DNA from: Lentisphaerae bacterium GWF2_49_21
GTDB taxonomy: Bacteria > Verrucomicrobiota > Lentisphaeria > Victivallales > GWF2-50-93
Length of the DNA stretch: 64,000 nucleotides
Direction of reading: 5' to 3'
Assembly (NCBI GenBank): GCA_001804805.1
Contig: MHBH01000077.1
Location: 1-64,000, forward strand
Below, piece after piece: positions 894 to 64,000 of this stretch (the stretch's first letter is position 1; each line of letters opens with the position of its first letter). The notes beneath the pieces were generated by a model. The model did no database searches, was not told the DNA's origin, and saw only the letters and a list, made by a program, of their open reading frames with translations. The position numbers were made by a program, and so were the translations under genes.

Positions 894-3200
894 GTGATCG
901 CTGAGCATTTTCAATGGAACTTCCCCGGGGGGGTTGTCGGGCTTCTGGCGACAGTCCTGGGAATGCTGTTGCTCACAGGACTGTCCTACCGGTACACTCT
1001 CCGGCAGATGCCCCAGATTCCGAAGCTCCTCCTCTCTGCCCTGAGAGGCGCCTTCCTGCTGCTTCTTCTCTTCTGCCTCTGTGCACCAAGTTCGGTAAAG
1101 GAGGAAAAGATCAGGGAGGACGCCAAGACAAAGCTGGCAGTGGTCTTCGACGAGTCGGCAAGCATGAAGATCAACGGCTCAAAAACTGGCAGCCGTATCG
1201 ACGAATCGATAAGGTCCTTCCGGGAATCCGTGCTTCCGCAGCTGAAAAACTGCGAGCTGAAGTATTACGCCTTCGCCGAAGGGCTGCGTCCTCTTAAAAT
1301 ACCCGAAGAGATATCCCCCGCAAACGTTGATGCCGCACCGCTCTCCACCGCGTTCTACCAGAACCTTTCAACGTGGTCGAAGCAGTTCGCGGCGGACGGT
1401 GTCCAGGCTGTGATCTGCATGACGGACGGCATTGACACCGGCGGCGAATCGATCGATCTTGCGGCCGAGGCACTCAACAACGGAGCTCCGCCCCATCTCT
1501 TTGTCCCGGCGGCGATGCCTCTCAAGTCCAAGGAGTCCTTTGAGTTTATCAGGGTGGAGGCGCCTCCCGCGGTCCGTGCAGGTTCGAGCGTTCCAGTGAC
1601 ACTAGTTGCGAAATACGCAGGCCTGGAAGCCACACAGCCGCTTGAAGTGAGCATCAAGGAAGGCGACAAAGTACTGTGGCAGGAAAAAATGGCGCACAGC
1701 TCAAGCAGCGGCGCAGGCAGAACTGTCAGCTGCGAGCTTCCTATAAAGGACAAGGGGCCCCATGTATTCGAGGCGACTGCAAGCTATGGAGGGAAAAAGG
1801 CGGCGTCCGTGATCTGGAGCGTATACGGAGTCAGCAAGGAACGCACGAAGGTTCTCCTGTTCATGGGATCGCTCGATTTCGGGGCGCGCTATCTCAAGAG
1901 CGCATTCGAGCGTAGCGAGCACGCAGAGATAGCTGTGCGATTCGCCCCCGACGTGCTGGGCTCTAAGACCGGAGTGCCATCGAAGATAAAGGCGCAGTTT
2001 GTTTCTCCAGAGGAACTCGCGGAGTATGACGTTGCGATCCTCATGAACTTGCGCAGGCATCAGATCACCCCGGAGATGGAGGCCCAGCTCAAATACTACA
2101 TCTCCGGCGGCGGTTCGGTCCTCTTCATCATCGCAAACACCGAGGCGGCCTCGGAATATGTCAACAGCCCCGTGGAAAAATTCCTGCCGGTGAGCTTCGT
2201 GGATCCAAATACGGGCAACAGCGGACAGCTCGACGGGAAGACCCGGAGCTTCCTTGACAAGATGAGCCGTTACAGGGCCAACCTCGCGATGGAAAAGAAT
2301 GTGCAGGCGGCACGCGGCAGCATGGACGTACCACCCATGACAAGGCTTCTGGCTACGGCGGCAGGCGCGGAATCCCCTCTCTTCGAGTACGCCCGGTTCG
2401 AAGGCAAATTCAATGCAAAGATGCTTCCGCTCTTCGAGGACTGCGCACTGGTGGAGAAAGCCAAGCCCGGCGCGACAGTCCTGGCTGTGCATCCCGAGTT
2501 CTCCACGCCGGAAAACGGACCGCGCGTCCTTCTGGCCGTACAGCCTTTCGGGCATGGGCGCTCTGCAATACTTGCGACCGATCCTCTCTGGCGCTGGCGC
2601 CTCTCGATAAGCTCCAAGAGCAAGGACTTCGACAGGTTCTGGGAGAATTTCGTGTCATGGCTCGGTGGAGGGCACATGCGCCAGCCGCATTGGCGCCTGG
2701 CATCCTCGCTTGTTCCGGCGAACACTCCTGTGCCCATCTATTTTTTCATTCCTCCGGGAACTGTCAAATTCGAGGAGATCTCGTTCAGCTCCGAACGCAA
2801 TGGCAAGCAGCAGGCCCTGATCCTAAGTCCGTCAGGCAAGCCCGGTGAATACAAGGGCGAAGTCGCACTGACGCCAGGTTCGCGCTGCATCCTGAAGGCC
2901 TTTAAGGGAAAAGAGCTGATAGCCGAATCATCGCTCGCCGGAGGCGAAGCTCCTGCATTGAGGGAAATGGCGATATTGAAACCGGATCTTGCGGGACTCA
3001 AGTATCTTGCCTCCCTCAACAACGGACTCTGCGCCGACAACCTTTCCGGGCTGAAGCTTGCGGGCTGGCTGCCTGAACCCGGAGAACAGCTGCTCAAGAA
3101 GGACGAGCGTCCGCTCTGGCACGAGGCATGGATCTTTGCAGCCCTTATTGGTTTCCTGTGCGTGGAATTCTGTGTCCGCAGATTTTACAGGCTTGTTTAA
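894..3200 (+). CDS. VWA / GATase-like membrane protein of the MoxR-BatA cluster
   Basis: A 768-residue membrane protein. Two transmembrane segments lie near residues 14-33 and 45-64, then a von Willebrand factor A domain begins with an intact MIDAS motif DESAS at 86-90. A class I glutamine-amidotransferase-like fold follows around 300-430 (VLLFMGSLDFGARYL, later GGGSVLFIIANTE), and the protein ends with a last membrane helix near 742-762. This architecture is typical of large proteins found next to MoxR/DUF58/BatA genes in Planctomycetes and Lentisphaerae. The start is GTG 894, preceded by GGAG. It opens a long same-strand cluster that runs to 16368. The VWA domain probably binds partners in a metal-dependent way on the periplasmic side. 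The biochemical role is unknown. Confidence 0.75.
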   Translation: MIAEHFQWNFPGGVVGLLATVLGMLLLTGLSYRYTLRQMPQIPKLLLSALRGAFLLLLLFCLCAPSSVKEEKIREDAKTKLAVVFDESASMKINGSKTGSRIDESIRSFRESVLPQLKNCELKYYAFAEGLRPLKIPEEISPANVDAAPLSTAFYQNLSTWSKQFAADGVQAVICMTDGIDTGGESIDLAAEALNNGAPPHLFVPAAMPLKSKESFEFIRVEAPPAVRAGSSVPVTLVAKYAGLEATQPLEVSIKEGDKVLWQEKMAHSSSSGAGRTVSCELPIKDKGPHVFEATASYGGKKAASVIWSVYGVSKERTKVLLFMGSLDFGARYLKSAFERSEHAEIAVRFAPDVLGSKTGVPSKIKAQFVSPEELAEYDVAILMNLRRHQITPEMEAQLKYYISGGGSVLFIIANTEAASEYVNSPVEKFLPVSFVDPNTGNSGQLDGKTRSFLDKMSRYRANLAMEKNVQAARGSMDVPPMTRLLATAAGAESPLFEYARFEGKFNAKMLPLFEDCALVEKAKPGATVLAVHPEFSTPENGPRVLLAVQPFGHGRSAILATDPLWRWRLSISSKSKDFDRFWENFVSWLGGGHMRQPHWRLASSLVPANTPVPIYFFIPPGTVKFEEISFSSERNGKQQALILSPSGKPGEYKGEVALTPGSRCILKAFKGKELIAESSLAGGEAPALREMAILKPDLAGLKYLASLNNGLCADNLSGLKLAGWLPEPGEQLLKKDERPLWHEAWIFAALIGFLCVEFCVRRFYRLV

Positions 3201-3215
3201 AATGGAGGTTTTCAT

Positions 3216-3971
3216 ATGGGATTTACAAATGTTTTAGTCCGCATCCGGATGGTATTGCTGTTCACTGCAGTGCTGGCGTTGTGCTGTTTCCTGCAGGCGC
3301 AGAATCCCAGGCAGGATTCGAAGAACAGCGCCATCAAGGCCGCCGCGCCTTTCCACTGGGGCAGGGTGAAGTTTGGAACCGAGGAGAAGGTTGGCGACGT
3401 ATGGGACGCCCATCCGTGGGCCGATGCGCATTTCCTGACAGCGCTCGAGAAATACACGAACATCAATGTCGACAAGCTCTGGCGCGAGGTCCCTCTCGAA
3501 GACCTTGATGAGATGGTGAAGTTTCCGTTCCTGTTCATAACAGGTGAGGGCTGGTTCAATCTCAGTCCATTGCAGAAGAAAAACATCAAGGAGTATCTTG
3601 AGCGCGGAGGATTCCTCTTCGGCGACGACTGCGTGATCGGCAACACCGGAGACCATTTCTATATTTCATTCAGGAAGGAGATCGAGCAGAGCTTCAACAC
3701 CGAAATGGTGAAGCTGCCGGCGGATCACGCGATCTACCACTCGCTCTACGACTTCAACGGTCTGCCATATATGCAGGGGCAGAACCATGGAGGGCACGCC
3801 CTCTTCATCGGCAAGCGCATGGCGATCTTTCTTTCACCGTCGGATCTCCACTGCGGCTGGGGGAGCCAGTACCTGCGCACGACCAAAGGCAATGGATGGT
3901 TTACACTTGAGAAAGAAGAAGCCGCTGTCAAAATGGGTATCAACGTAATAGTTTATGCAATGACAAACTGA
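3216..3971 (+). CDS. DUF4159 domain-containing exported protein
   Basis: A 251-residue protein with an N-terminal hydrophobic signal segment (about residues 9-29, ending near LQAQ). One DUF4159 domain follows, marked by FHWGRVKFGTEE, HPWADAHFL, FLFITGEGWF and YLERGGFLFGDDC. DUF4159 is a GATase-like fold that regularly sits beside MoxR-VWA clusters. It lies 15 bp behind the VWA/GATase gene with GGAGG before the ATG, so the two are almost certainly co-transcribed. Its enzymatic activity, if any, is not known. The intact start, signal peptide and domain boundaries argue for a functional gene. Confidence 0.85.
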   Translation: MGFTNVLVRIRMVLLFTAVLALCCFLQAQNPRQDSKNSAIKAAAPFHWGRVKFGTEEKVGDVWDAHPWADAHFLTALEKYTNINVDKLWREVPLEDLDEMVKFPFLFITGEGWFNLSPLQKKNIKEYLERGGFLFGDDCVIGNTGDHFYISFRKEIEQSFNTEMVKLPADHAIYHSLYDFNGLPYMQGQNHGGHALFIGKRMAIFLSPSDLHCGWGSQYLRTTKGNGWFTLEKEEAAVKMGINVIVYAMTN

Positions 3972-10828: not shown

Positions 10829-13224
10829 GAATGGAAAGAATATTGTATAAGAAGATTCATATGATGATGGCTCTCGTCATGGGGCTGGTGTTTTTTGCCT
10901 CAGCAGGAAGCATTGCCGCCGATGGAGAAGCTCCTGTCCTGCCAAACGGCCAGGATCTGAAAACAGAAAAGGACTACTCGAAGATTGCGCTGGCCTGGAT
11001 CAAGCGTAACACGCTGGAATACTTCCCCGGCAAGGACAGCAGCCTCGATCCGGTACAGATTCAGTTCGGGCAGCAGTTCCTCTACGAATCCTGCCTGAAA
11101 TTCGCCGATGACAAGAATGCACTCTCTGACACAGAGCTTGACAATAAGACACGTTCTCTTTTTACTATTGCTGGACTGAAACATCCTGTCTTGCAGGCGT
11201 GGACGGGACGCACGCTCGTAAAGAGCAGGAAATACAAAGATGCCGAACCCTCGCTGGCCTCGGCGGTGCAGGAATTCAACAAGGGAGACTTTCCCCTCAT
11301 CCATAAAATCACCGCGTGCATGGCCTATGTCAAGAGCCTTGAGGAGCAGCGCAAAGGGAAAAGCAAAGAATGCCAGCAGGCGTTGTCCGCAATCCCGGAA
11401 TCCTTTGCAGAATCTGTTTCCAAGGGAGATTTTGGCAAGGATGAGCTCTCCATTGCATTCAGGCTGATGGACGAATGGGTCAACGATGACATAAAAGGGC
11501 ACGGATGGAAGGATGTCTTCAAGGCCCTCAAGTCCCGCTCGAAGATCGATCCATGGCTGATGAAGACGATCGAGGGCAAGACCGAGATCGAACTTGCCTG
11601 GGATGCACGAGGCGGAGGATATTCCGGCTCTGTGACAAAGGACGGATGGAAGGGGTTCGAGGAGCATTTGTCCAAGGCCCGTGCCGTCTTGCAGGAGGCA
11701 TGGAAGCTGCGGCCGGACCTCCCTGAGGCACCCGCATCCATGATCACCGTGATCATGGGCGGAAAAAACGGCAATGGTGAAACGGAAATGCTCTGGCTTT
11801 CCAGGGCGGCCAGCGCCCAGCTCGACTACATGCCAGCTTACAGGAAGGCCAGCCTGGCCCTTATGCCAAAGTGGGGAGGCAGCATCAGGAAGCTCCACGA
11901 GCTCGGACAGGCCTGCCTGGCGACAGGACGCTTTGACACCGATGTTCCCGTCTTCCTCCTCTACTGTCTCAAAAGCATATGCACCGAAGCACCTCCCCGG
12001 CAATGGCGCTCGGTATTCGCGCAGAAGGTTGTACAGGACGAACTGGACGACCTCTGGCAGGGAATGATCGACGAACCCGGCCGGGCCAAGGAACGCAACA
12101 GGATTTTGACGCAGTGGGCCATTTGCAAGATGTGGGGCGGAAACTACGAAAGGGCGCAGGAGCTTATGTCGGATGCCGACCTGACTCTGAACCTCAACAA
12201 CGGTTTTGCGCACATGAGCATCACCCGCTATAACAATACTCCGAGGGAAAGGATAATGGCGGAACTCCGCCTCTTTACCGGCCCGTCGAAGGAGTCCGCA
12301 GTCAAGTGGGCTGCAGCTGTCGCAACGGGTAGCGAGAGCGATGCGGTGGACGCCGCAAAAGTGCTTCTCGGGAAGAACAAGGACGACGTGGATGTCAGGA
12401 AACTCATACTGGCGGATACCGCATTAATGGTCCTTGATGATGCCAAACATTCGCCGGACATCACCGATCCCCTCCTCTTTTCCCTAGGAAACGGCAAACG
12501 CAACGTGCTCAATTTCATTGCTGACAACGGCTGGCCTCTTGATGACGCCAGTACAAGCGGCTGGAACGCGCTTACAACTTCCCTGTACTATAAGAAATTT
12601 GACGATGCGAAGATGCTCCTCTCAAAAGGCGCCGACATAAACTACAAGAACAAGTCGGGGGAAGCCCCCCTGCACCTGCTGGGCCGCATGGGCAGCCTGG
12701 AGGCAGTCACCTTCCTTGTTGAAAACAAAGCCGATCTGGAAAGCATCGTCCCCCCTCACAATACAACGCCTCTCCTGGCCACCATATATGGGAACAAGGA
12801 GGCCAGCGCGTTGTATCTCATCGACAATGGAGCCGGGCTGGATGCCGCCGATGTAGACGGAGACACGCCATTCCATAATGCATGCAACATGAGGCTTTTC
12901 TCAGTGGCGAAACATCTGGTTGAAAAGGGGGCAAATCCCGGCAAGGCAAACAAGAACGGCAGCACCCTCATCTTTTATGCGATAAATTTCAAACAGACTG
13001 AGATTGTTGCGCTGCTGATTGAAAAGGGCGCGGAGCTCTCAGTGAAAAACCAAAACGGCGATACTCCCCTCCATGCCGCGGCGATGCAGGACAACCCGGA
13101 TGTAGTTTCCCTCCTGCTTGAGAAGGGCGCGGACAGGAACGCCGTCAACAACAACGGCAGGACACCGCTTGCGCTCGCCAAGGAAAAGAAGTTTGAATAT
13201 AACATAAGACTCCTGTCTAAATAG
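10825..13224 (+). CDS. Exported ankyrin-repeat protein
   Basis: A 799-residue protein with a signal peptide (positive start, hydrophobic MMMALVMGLVFFASAG, cleavage near AADGE at about 32-33). The N-terminal 500 residues are helical and Trp-rich, possibly TPR-like, with no family I can name. The C-terminal 270 residues are about seven ankyrin repeats, recognisable by GWNALTTSLYYKKFDDAKMLL, GEAPLHLLGRMG, GDTPFHNACNMR and GDTPLHAAAMQDNPDVV. Ankyrin repeats mediate protein binding, here probably in the periplasm. I use ATG 10825, which overlaps the BatA stop; the open frame reaches 33 bases further upstream but only inside the BatA gene. This is an unusual member for a MoxR cluster. Confidence 0.82.
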   Translation: MRMERILYKKIHMMMALVMGLVFFASAGSIAADGEAPVLPNGQDLKTEKDYSKIALAWIKRNTLEYFPGKDSSLDPVQIQFGQQFLYESCLKFADDKNALSDTELDNKTRSLFTIAGLKHPVLQAWTGRTLVKSRKYKDAEPSLASAVQEFNKGDFPLIHKITACMAYVKSLEEQRKGKSKECQQALSAIPESFAESVSKGDFGKDELSIAFRLMDEWVNDDIKGHGWKDVFKALKSRSKIDPWLMKTIEGKTEIELAWDARGGGYSGSVTKDGWKGFEEHLSKARAVLQEAWKLRPDLPEAPASMITVIMGGKNGNGETEMLWLSRAASAQLDYMPAYRKASLALMPKWGGSIRKLHELGQACLATGRFDTDVPVFLLYCLKSICTEAPPRQWRSVFAQKVVQDELDDLWQGMIDEPGRAKERNRILTQWAICKMWGGNYERAQELMSDADLTLNLNNGFAHMSITRYNNTPRERIMAELRLFTGPSKESAVKWAAAVATGSESDAVDAAKVLLGKNKDDVDVRKLILADTALMVLDDAKHSPDITDPLLFSLGNGKRNVLNFIADNGWPLDDASTSGWNALTTSLYYKKFDDAKMLLSKGADINYKNKSGEAPLHLLGRMGSLEAVTFLVENKADLESIVPPHNTTPLLATIYGNKEASALYLIDNGAGLDAADVDGDTPFHNACNMRLFSVAKHLVEKGANPGKANKNGSTLIFYAINFKQTEIVALLIEKGAELSVKNQNGDTPLHAAAMQDNPDVVSLLLEKGADRNAVNNNGRTPLALAKEKKFEYNIRLLSK

Positions 13225-21710: not shown

Positions 21711-22361
21711 TTAGGTTCTTCCTCCCGATATCTTATCTATGGCCCTTATCCAGGAATCCTTTTCCTTCCCGAACTTTTCGCCTGAAAAGCGGTAGTCGAA
21801 CTTCCTGATGAACTCCTTGAGCTCTGCATCAAGCTCCTTGAGCTTCACCGATTCGACTTCAAGGTAGGAGGATATTGTCTTCGAATTCCTCCATGTCCTG
21901 ACAGCCATCGCCATGTGGTTCAGGCATAAACCCTGTGATTTCTCGTATGCTGCTTTCACCTCTGGCATGTCAAAGTTTCCGGAAAAGACTTCCAGATACC
22001 GTTTCTCGATCCCTCCCACATGTTCGCAGAATATGCATTTCCTGTCTGCAAGCAGCCTGTCAAGAGCTTTCCGGGTCTTCTTCGGATCCGAAGGGGATAA
22101 ATGAATCTTGTGGAATGTCTCAACCAGATCCTGGTAGATGATCCCCTGTCCAAGACAGTTCTCGCTCTTCTGGAGCATCCAGGCATGGGCATGGCAGAAT
22201 CCGAAATTCTTCCTGATCCTGAGGCGGGTGTCAACGTCCGTCACTGTCTCGTCGAGGAAATTGTAGAGGAATTTGTCGAGTCGCTCCTTCATGATAAAGC
22301 ACAAGGGGCAGCCATTGGCATTGAAGGATTCGACAAGATTGAAATAATTCAGGTCTTCCAT
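21711..22361 (-). CDS. DUF6062-family cysteine-rich protein
   Basis: A 216-residue protein with CPLC at residues 18-21, FGFCHAHAWML around 55-65, CIFC around 114-117 and GLCLNHM around 145-151. This is the paired CxxC/CxxH layout of the DUF6062 family. The arrangement suggests two metal-binding knuckles. The function of the family is unknown. It stands alone on the minus strand between AT-rich gaps. There is no signal peptide, so it is likely cytoplasmic. The family call is from recognition of the motif pattern. Confidence 0.7.
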   Translation of the reverse strand: MEDLNYFNLVESFNANGCPLCFIMKERLDKFLYNFLDETVTDVDTRLRIRKNFGFCHAHAWMLQKSENCLGQGIIYQDLVETFHKIHLSPSDPKKTRKALDRLLADRKCIFCEHVGGIEKRYLEVFSGNFDMPEVKAAYEKSQGLCLNHMAMAVRTWRNSKTISSYLEVESVKLKELDAELKEFIRKFDYRFSGEKFGKEKDSWIRAIDKISGGRT

Positions 22362-57232: not shown

Positions 57233-58549
57233 ATGAATATCTTCCACGAACCATCCCGCGACATCCCATGCGTTGAACACGTTGACGTTCTTGTGGCTGG
57301 CAGCGGTCCTGCCGGTATCGCCGCCGCTATGGCTGCGGCCCGCCTCGGAGCCTCAGTCCGCCTGATCGAGCAGAACGGCTGCCTGGGCGGCATATGGACG
57401 TCCGGTCTGCTATGCTGGATACTCGATATCCGCAACAAGCAGGATGGTATCCTTCGTGAAATTGTTGATGCGCTGGATCGGCGTGGTGCGACCTGGCCGG
57501 TCAAGGTTGCCGCCTGCGCCTTTCAGCCGGAGGCGATGAAAATCCTGCTCGAAGACACATGTCTCGCCGCTGGCGTGCGTATACGTCTGCATACCCGGCT
57601 ATGTGCGGCGGCTTGCGATCCAGGCGGCCGGCTGGCCACGGTGATCACTGAGTCGACGTCCGGACGCGAGGCATGGGGGGCCACATGTTTTGTCGATGCG
57701 ACCGGCAATGGTGACCTCGCAGCCATGGCTGGATGCAGTTTCGACTACGGACGGCCGGAGGACGGCAAGGCCCAGCCGATGTCCCTGCTTGCCCTGGTTA
57801 GCGGTCCGTTGGCGTCGGAAATCCCTGAAGTGATGCACGACGGCTCTCAGCCTGGGCGGGCGGACAAGGAGCGTCTGCTGGCGCTGATCCGCGCCGGCGG
57901 ATTCGAACCATCGTCGGGAATGCCGATGCTGATACCCCTCGCACCGCGGCTATACGCGCTGGGCAACTGCAATCATATCTACGGGGCCGATGCCCTCGAC
58001 AGCCAAGCGCTGACAGATGCTACCATCCGAGCGCGCACAGAGACCCGCAACGTCGTCACCGCCCTGAGATCTCACGGCGGTCCGTGGTCGGAACTCCAAC
58101 TCGTCGCCACCGCCGAACACATCGGCGTTCGCGAGGGCCGTCGGATTCATGGGCTCCACCAGGTCGTGGTCGGCGAGATGGAAGGCGGAGTGCGGCATCC
58201 TGATCCGGTCTGCCGTGCGACCTTCGGAGTTGATGTACATGCTATAACAGGTGGTCCGGGCGCTACATGCGAACCTGGCATCAAACGGCACGTGCTGCCC
58301 TATGACATACCCTTGCGCGCGCTTATCGCTGCAGATCGCGACGGGCTGCTCCTCGCCGGGCGCTGCATCAGCGGTGATTTCCTGTCGCACTCCAGCTATC
58401 GGCAGACCGGCGATGCTGTTCCGATGGGCGAGGCTGCAGGAGCTTGCGCCGCCCTGGCCGCGCGGACAGGGCGCTTGCCACACCAGGTTGCATGGTCGGA
58501 ACTGGCCGCTGCTTTGCCGCAGCTGGGCAGGTTGATCGAGGTGCAGTGA
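57233..58549 (+). CDS. FAD-dependent oxidoreductase (PF12831-type), second copy, GC-rich
   Basis: A 438-residue flavoprotein with [19 protein letters not shown] near residues 20-38, [28 protein letters not shown], the [13 protein letters not shown] segment and a terminal [20 protein letters not shown]. It is a paralogue of the gene at 53887. By eye its DNA is richer in G+C and uses more GCC/CGC/CTG codons than its neighbours, so it may have been acquired separately. AAAGGA lies six bases before the ATG. The natural substrate is unknown; the neighbourhood suggests a sugar derivative. Confidence 0.84.
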
Positions 58550-58590
58550 AAAGACGCGTACCGTATTGGATTATCACAAGGAGTCCATAC

Positions 58591-59376
58591 ATGAACACAG
58601 GAAAAATATTTCAGATCTTCACCCTTATCGAACTGCTGATTGTAATCGCAATTATCGCGGTGCTTGTCGCATTGCTGCTGCCGGCCCTGAGCGGGGCAAA
58701 AGAGGTGGCGCACAGGCTAATCTGCGGGTCCAATATAAGACAGATGGGCATTCTGGTCCTGGCATATGCACAGGACAATGACGGCAATTTCCCCGAGCAC
58801 AGGAATTCCGAGAACAGCTGGCCATATGCGTATTCATACTGGGGGAGGAAATACACAAATTTCCATGCTGACTATGTGATTCAGAGTTCGAAAAATCCGG
58901 ACATTGCATTCTGCAAGGACTCGCTTGAGGCATATCGCTCGGATCCTGCACATGTCATCCATGAAAGCTACAAGCACTGGAGCAACACTTCCCCGGCGGC
59001 CAATTATCCTTCGCACATAGGATACTGCTATTATTATGGCGCGGATGAGACACATGGCACCAACGGACGAAGCGGATATACCATGCTGCAGAAAGTTCCA
59101 AATCCTTCCTTGTCCACAGTCCTCGCCGATTCGATGCGCTTCGGGGGCAGTTCCATGCCGTCGCCACGCATATTGAACCAGGACAAATGGCCTTGGAACC
59201 ATCGAGGACAAAACAGAACAACGTTAGGCAACCGCAGCGGGGGTAACATGTTCTACTGCGACGGGCACGTCAAATGGATGCAGGGTTTCGAGACGCTTAT
59301 GGCCCACAGGCAGTTCATGGAAGGAAGTCCGGACAACACATACGCCGCTGAACAGCCTGGAGATGCGGTCCATTGA
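58591..59376 (+). CDS. Lentisphaerae-type pseudopilin with short DUF1559-like body
   Basis: A 261-residue protein whose N-terminus is a type IV pilin/type II secretion prepilin segment ([20 protein letters not shown], residues about 9-28). The body has [32 protein letters not shown] and a C-terminal [13 protein letters not shown] block, typical of the single prepilin-like proteins that occur in many copies in Lentisphaerae. The residue before Phe-Thr-Leu is Ile, not the usual Gly, so processing by prepilin peptidase is uncertain. AAGGAG precedes ATG 58591. The frame is open to 58444 inside the flavoprotein gene, which I reject. No assembly genes are nearby. Confidence 0.85.
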
Positions 59377-62783: not shown

Positions 62784-64000
62784 ATGACAATTAAAACATC
62801 CTCCATTAAATTTAACAGGCTGATTTCATGCCTGCTGCTGTTTTTTTGCTCTCTTGCGTCTTCCGCCCTGTTCTCCGGGGAAGATGAGCCACAGAAGAAG
62901 CTCACCCTCCTCCTGTGGAACATCCCCTCAAAGGGAAGCAACGATGTAAACACGAAGGCCGACCGCGAAGTCTTTGATCTTTTCATCAAGAAACATCCCC
63001 ATATCAATGTCAAGACACTGGTGCCGCTCAAGATCCAGGGACCGGCCTCCGAAGGCAACCAGTTCATGGCCGTCGCCGGCGGAATGGCACCGGACGTCTT
63101 TGATCTCTATGGCAGGAAAGTCGGAGACTACATTGATCAGGGTTTTCTTGCACCTCTCAACGACAGGTTCATGAACGATTTCTCCGGCAAGGGCAAAAAC
63201 TATTCAGGAGTTGAAGCCCCTGACAAGATCTGGGAGATATCCGCGCGCGACGGCCTGATATACGCGGTTCCGCGGTCCTATTATTTCTTGGCGCTGATGT
63301 ACCGCAAGGATCTTTTCATCAAGGCCGGTCTTGATCCAAGCCGCGGCCCGAATGACTGGGATGAGATGTGGGAGATGGGCAAACGTCTCACGTTCATACC
63401 GGCCAAGGAGCCGGGCTCCCCACAGGACCAGATGCCTGTCTATGGATTCTCCCTCGTCAGGGGTCTTCATCAGGGCTGGCATTTCCTGCAGTTTGTCTGG
63501 TCCGGCGGCGGAGAAGTCGTGAAAAGCTTCAAGGACTGCCCTTCATGCGGGAAGACCGTTCCGGTGGAAATTCCCTGTTTTGATTACAGCAAGTTTGGGA
63601 TCAAGCTGGTAAACGAAGCGCAATACGCGGATAAATTCGCCCGGAAAAATGACGCCTGTCCGGAATGCGGAAAAAGTCTTTCAGGCGTGTCAGAAATCAA
63701 ATGGAAGCTTGTTACCAACGGTGAAGGCGGAATAGCCGCTCTTGAATTCTATAGGAAGATTGCGTCCCAGCCCTGGCTGCGCTGCCTGTCCGACCACCCG
63801 AGGCGTGAATTCGACATTACACCGGAAATGAAAAGGAGCGGAACAGCGGAATGTCCGGAATGCGGAGAAAAATATGATCTCGCCTCTGACGGGGTCAGCA
63901 ACAGGATTTATGAGGGGATAGCGCGAAGCACGATGGGAGCAGTGCGCGGGGAGAGATATGACTATGCCATGCAGATCACCCAGCTGGGCGGCGTAATCAA
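62784..64000 (+). CDS. Extracellular solute-binding protein with CxxC zinc-ribbon-like inserts (partial at window edge)
   Basis: At least 405 residues, open at the right edge. A signal peptide (about 14-35, ending near SSALFSGED) precedes a family 1 sugar-binding-protein start: LTLLLWNIPSK, FDLFIKKHPHINVKTL, NQFMAVAGGMAPDVFDLYG, FLAPLNDRF and YRKDLFIKAGLDPS. Unusually for an exported protein, the middle carries CPSCG (Cys252, Cys255), CPECG (Cys292, Cys295) and CPECG (Cys357, Cys360), plus Cys334 in LRCLSDHP, each followed by a short hairpin-like stretch. These look like zinc-ribbon knuckles inserted into the binding protein. It would deliver oligosaccharide to an ABC importer that should lie just beyond the window. 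Confidence 0.82.
   Translation, partial: MTIKTSSIKFNRLISCLLLFFCSLASSALFSGEDEPQKKLTLLLWNIPSKGSNDVNTKADREVFDLFIKKHPHINVKTLVPLKIQGPASEGNQFMAVAGGMAPDVFDLYGRKVGDYIDQGFLAPLNDRFMNDFSGKGKNYSGVEAPDKIWEISARDGLIYAVPRSYYFLALMYRKDLFIKAGLDPSRGPNDWDEMWEMGKRLTFIPAKEPGSPQDQMPVYGFSLVRGLHQGWHFLQFVWSGGGEVVKSFKDCPSCGKTVPVEIPCFDYSKFGIKLVNEAQYADKFARKNDACPECGKSLSGVSEIKWKLVTNGEGGIAALEFYRKIASQPWLRCLSDHPRREFDITPEMKRSGTAECPECGEKYDLASDGVSNRIYEGIARSTMGAVRGERYDYAMQITQLGGVI

Follow-up and report, generated by a model that had tools for sequence, protein, structure and literature searches.

The gene that starts close to the right-hand end of the window (the whole 64,000-nucleotide stretch of DNA analyzed here) encodes a fused importer, the solute-binding protein (SBP) of which probably carries, in two inserts, two structural zinc-ribbon-type sites that can be swapped for plain turns. 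Judged by its sequence, the gene belongs to a carbohydrate ABC importer, for which it supplies a membrane-tethered binding protein and a MalF-type permease in one chain. The following observations on the gene, its relatives and the redox setting of the genome describe the two sites and bear on their likely function.

The fusion gene and its neighborhood

The window belongs to a 176.7-kb contig of a 95%-complete, 5.9-Mb genome. The stop codon of the fusion gene is at contig positions 65505-65507, 1507 bases beyond the window edge. The complete product has 907 amino acids and consists of the SBP, a transmembrane (TM) segment at residues ~573-591 and a MalF-type permease at residues ~610-895. The original prediction of a solute-binding protein with a signal peptide is borne out by the SBP_bac_1 profile (PF01547, cut-off 26), which scores 69.3 bits with the window part of the protein (the translation of 62784-63998) and 82 bits with the full protein, and by an N-terminus in which basic residues precede a hydrophobic segment and which is called an export signal heuristically. 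The same translation contains the CPSCG and two CPECG motifs, the additional Cys 334 and the His at about 338 that had been read from the DNA. A frameshift, by which the knuckles would belong to another gene, is ruled out because the frame is open to residue 907 and the orthologs agree.

The permease part scores 26.7 bits with BPD_transp_1 (PF00528), which is marginal to the cut-off of 26.4, and an ortholog scores 28.3 bits. Its matches to the UgpA, GlcT and MalF NCBIfam models, at residues 632-893, are far under the equivalog cut-offs. The next gene, starting at contig position ~65715, encodes a MalG-type permease, so that the ABC permeases anticipated to the right are present, one fused and one adjacent. 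No ABC ATPase was found near the fusion gene in a crude scan of the sampled 385 kb for the Walker A and signature-motif pattern. The surroundings include genes for GH4, a sialic-acid-specific acetylesterase (SASA), a GDSL esterase, FAD_oxidored and PD40 proteins, a LacI-type regulator and a CBM9 protein. As these are carbohydrate genes, the product of the fusion gene likely binds a carbohydrate. The fused SBP-permease layout is widespread in 100 related genomes, with open frames mostly of 830-970 amino acids.

The neighboring MalG-type permease (L005:7715-9679, contig position ~65715-67679) carries ~390-400 additional residues that separate its first TM segment from the remainder of the protein. 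This additional region gives a Pfam GH42 match of 29.4 bits, above the cut-off of 21, and the same layout is repeated in a paralog (L006:9368-11272, 34.9 bits) and in an ortholog (L046:3820-5787, 28.9 bits). Three prepilin-like proteins of the FTLIELLVVIAIIAIL type are encoded near the transporter genes, one in the window (58444-59376) and two at L005:10986-11849 and 11852-12718. A further SBP of the same family is truncated by the end of contig C27 (L008:5107-5637).

The original prediction placed knuckle-like inserts in the SBP, and two inserts were indeed found, both in its second half (Table 1). This half is probably the C-lobe. Insert 1 is missing in the clade of insert-free proteins. When an insert-free paralog is aligned to MalE3 (6dtq), the position of insert 1 corresponds to the hairpin preceding the FYxxL helix.

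Table 1. Features of the fusion gene within the window
Feature	Position	Strand	Remarks
SBP-permease fusion gene, first 405 of 907 codons	62784..64000	+	Translation, contig ORF
Signal peptide / N-terminal export segment, residues 1-31	62784..62876	+	Hydrophobic 13-31
SBP_bac_1 match, residues 59-256	62958..63551	+	Pfam profile
Insert 1, residues ~247-308	63522..63707	+	Beta-hairpin before FYRK helix, grown to ~60 residues
Knuckle 1, C252-P-S-C255 (CPSCG 252-256)	63537..63548	+	Cys invariant in orthologs
Knuckle 2, C292-P-E-C295 (CPECG 292-296)	63657..63668	+	Cys invariant in orthologs
Insert 2, residues ~332-375	63777..63908	+	Between FYRK helix and next conserved strand
Half-knuckle 3, C334 and H338	63783..63797	+	Both invariant in orthologs; H338 absent in G461
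Knuckle 4, C357-P-E-C360 (CPECG 357-361)	63852..63863	+	Cys invariant in orthologs, present in G262 and G461

The ligand sets in orthologs and remoter relatives

Two orthologs are close enough for a residue-by-residue comparison: that of the uncultured Lentisphaeria bacterium Umea_bin-02975 (G095; 68% identity over 887 residues) and that of Lentisphaeria bacterium DeMMO1_3 (G007; 65% identity). The seven cysteines at 252, 255, 292, 295, 334, 357 and 360 and H338 are invariant in both, with identical spacing and without gaps, and are thus found in three genera in all. The positions of C248 and C265 vary among the three orthologous sequences, which rules out C265 as a ligand. Synonymous sites are saturated in this comparison (pS ~0.8), and 81 of the 150 residues of the insert region are invariant. 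That the putative ligands are invariant under these circumstances shows that their conservation is beyond chance. The G007 copy (L011/L047) is out of frame past residue ~543, due either to a real break or to an assembly error.

All eight ligands are present in these three sequences only. Across several hundred genomes of the phylum, both sites occur in 3 genomes and the second site only in 2. The original prediction named a general lack of the cysteines in homologues as evidence against it. At the level of the family this is what is seen, as most homologues are without them, whereas they are conserved in the closest orthologs (65-68% identity). At ~40% identity, insert-bearing proteins in G024, G036 and G061 and a fragment in G104 have no Cys at the four knuckle positions, which are occupied by NPKTG, DPVTG or DPATG, DPDTG, and SPYSG or SPYTG, respectively. 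Remoter insert-bearers have SPTTG, APDTG and DPDSG turns. The insert-free group, to which the paralog of the same genome (contig 46, L006) belongs, has a short hairpin with a DPKTG or DPNTG turn in places.

A search of the phylum with a profile of the insert found three more proteins with collinear inserts, two from another class (G262 and G461) and one from the same class (G396). G262 has none of the four cysteines 252, 255, 292 and 295 (site 1), and has C334, H338 and a CPVCG knuckle, the counterparts of 334, 338, 357 and 360 (site 2). In G461, site 1 is likewise absent, and C334 and a CPDCG knuckle are present without the His. Neither site is present in G396. As the site-1 cysteines are missing as a unit in G262 and G461 while site-2 ligands remain, the pattern supports two separate four-ligand sites, one comprising 252/255 and 292/295, and the other comprising 334/338 and 357/360. 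The grouping of 252/255 with 292/295 into one four-Cys set, proposed originally, agrees with their joint absence, and the same coupled loss favors two sites over a single shared four-Cys site. Since G461 retains three site-2 cysteines without H338, its second site may have another fourth ligand or may be in decay.

In a tree built from the alignment columns outside the insert, the proteins with both sites form one clade (100/100), and their sister group consists of the partial and the Cys-less collinear proteins (100/99). The insert-free proteins are all on one side of a branch. The tree is unrooted and thus agrees with a single gain of the cysteines as well as with repeated losses. A collinear piece of site 1 (CPQC, 36 residues, CNAC) was also seen in G176, from another class (L057 ~3040-3290; G176:C20 ~22053-22300). 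This piece runs into GIAL*QEFRKV, with an internal stop, and is apparently a decayed copy. A search of viral contigs found no relatives.

Zinc sites, disulfides and other readings of the cysteines

By combining these observations, it is possible to propose what the inserts do. The exported binding domain has two inserts, each bearing turn-like knuckles. The CxxC...CxxC set of site 1 and the CxxxH...CxxC set of site 2 would hold one zinc each, stiffening the inserts. The role of the metal would be structural, with ordinary DPxTG-type turns filling the same insert positions in relatives. As the relatives keep both the inserts and the transporter without the cysteines, stabilization of the inserts by the metal is the most economical explanation. 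We infer the cysteines to be metal ligands, the metal to be zinc, and the pairing geometry and structural role to be as described. The stiffened surface might contribute to sugar binding or to docking on the permease.

Structure prediction gives a partial picture of the inserts. AlphaFold models of the whole SBP, made for three sequences, have a pLDDT of 41 and are uninformative. For residues 232-381 alone, the pLDDT is 62 overall and ~78-83 in the knuckle blocks. In this model, which is poor globally, strands of at least three residues are found on either side of C252/C255 and of C357/C360, and just single-residue bridges around C292/C295. A Foldseek search with the insert model against the PDB and viral structures returned no significant match. 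None of the Pfam zinc-ribbon models reaches its cut-off, the best being DUF7575 with 23.1 bits versus 28.5.

CPxC is also common as a disulfide motif. As the protein is exported, periplasmic disulfides, either inside each CxxC or between knuckles, could staple the inserts without any metal, and the three site-2 cysteines of G461, lacking the His, would allow a disulfide within the CxxC. Such disulfides are rather improbable, and the redox setting of the genome speaks against them. Searches for three families, DsbA, DsbB and VKOR, detected none of them in the 95%-complete assembly, whereas the same searches were positive in control genomes. The original prediction held CxxC pairs to be rare in exported proteins, and in this genome they occur in 0 of 57 predicted exported proteins versus 28 of 158 predicted soluble ones (273 ORFs from 385 kb, classified by crude ORF and signal-peptide rules). 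The sampled exported proteins have no bias towards even numbers of Cys either (27 odd, 30 even). These results are consistent, in an indirect way, with an envelope in which reduced Cys sites could persist. Furthermore, disulfides alone leave the invariant H338 and the CPxCG pattern of the knuckles unexplained.

Two readings that assign the cysteines an active role are both improbable. In the first, site 1 would be a rubredoxin-like Fe(Cys)4 center that serves periplasmic redox reactions or electron transfer. It resembles rubredoxin in its CPxCG...CPxCG pattern, and one weak Foldseek match, which is not significant, is a viral rubredoxin. The Cys pairs of site 1 are separated by 36 residues, those of rubredoxin by ~29. 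Yet the isolated insert of an ortholog has no match to the rubredoxin family among Pfam results up to E=5, no redox partner is evident nearby except the FAD_oxidored proteins, a link to which is not established, and relatives with the same transporter architecture lack the site. It is just as doubtful that the sites act as sensors of metal or redox state by which uptake is gated. Judging from SBP topology and the MalE3 alignment, both sites belong to a portion of the SBP that should move on ligand binding; however, the Cys-less relatives retain the insert and the transporter, and the neighbors are genes for carbohydrates (GH4, SASA and GDSL esterases, LacI regulator) rather than for metals. 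Structural zinc sites thus remain the preferred reading. As a tentative extension of it, DPxTG turns and CPxCG knuckles may interchange, and the two zinc sites may have been gained or lost independently of each other in an exported insert, in bacteria apparently without an oxidative disulfide pathway.

Known systems and significance

The fusion protein resembles the SBP_bac_1 proteins MalE3 (6dtq) and trehalose/maltose-binding protein (1eu8) in its fold family, its signal peptide and its likely carbohydrate ligand, and differs from them in its two Cys-bearing inserts and the C-terminal permease fusion. GlnPQ and OpuA are importers from different families of SBPs and transporters. Like the fusion protein, they have a binding domain covalently joined to the translocator (PMC8025302, PMC2861598). 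Here, in contrast, a MalF-type permease follows an SBP_bac_1 domain, with a TM helix as the link between them, an arrangement common among the relatives of this genome.

Zinc sites present in some members of a family and missing in others have precedents. Ribosomal protein S4 exists in zinc and zinc-free (C+ and C-) forms (PMC3087516), and Cren7 has lost zinc ligands and retained its fold (PMC5906684). The putative zinc ligands of the inserts are distributed in a similar way, with the fold retained. S4 and Cren7, however, are intracellular nucleic-acid-binding proteins, whereas the SBP fusion is an exported transport protein. In open-licence papers, neither a description of such Cys/zinc sites in a solute-binding protein nor Lentisphaerae SBP-permease fusions were found.

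If zinc is bound, metal-free and metal-bound forms of one exported insert would be directly comparable, with natural intermediates on hand that are devoid of one site and retain the other. The family would then allow the functional exchangeability of the DPxTG turn and the CPxCG knuckle to be tested directly, and would bear on the question of which cell envelopes tolerate reduced-thiol zinc sites.
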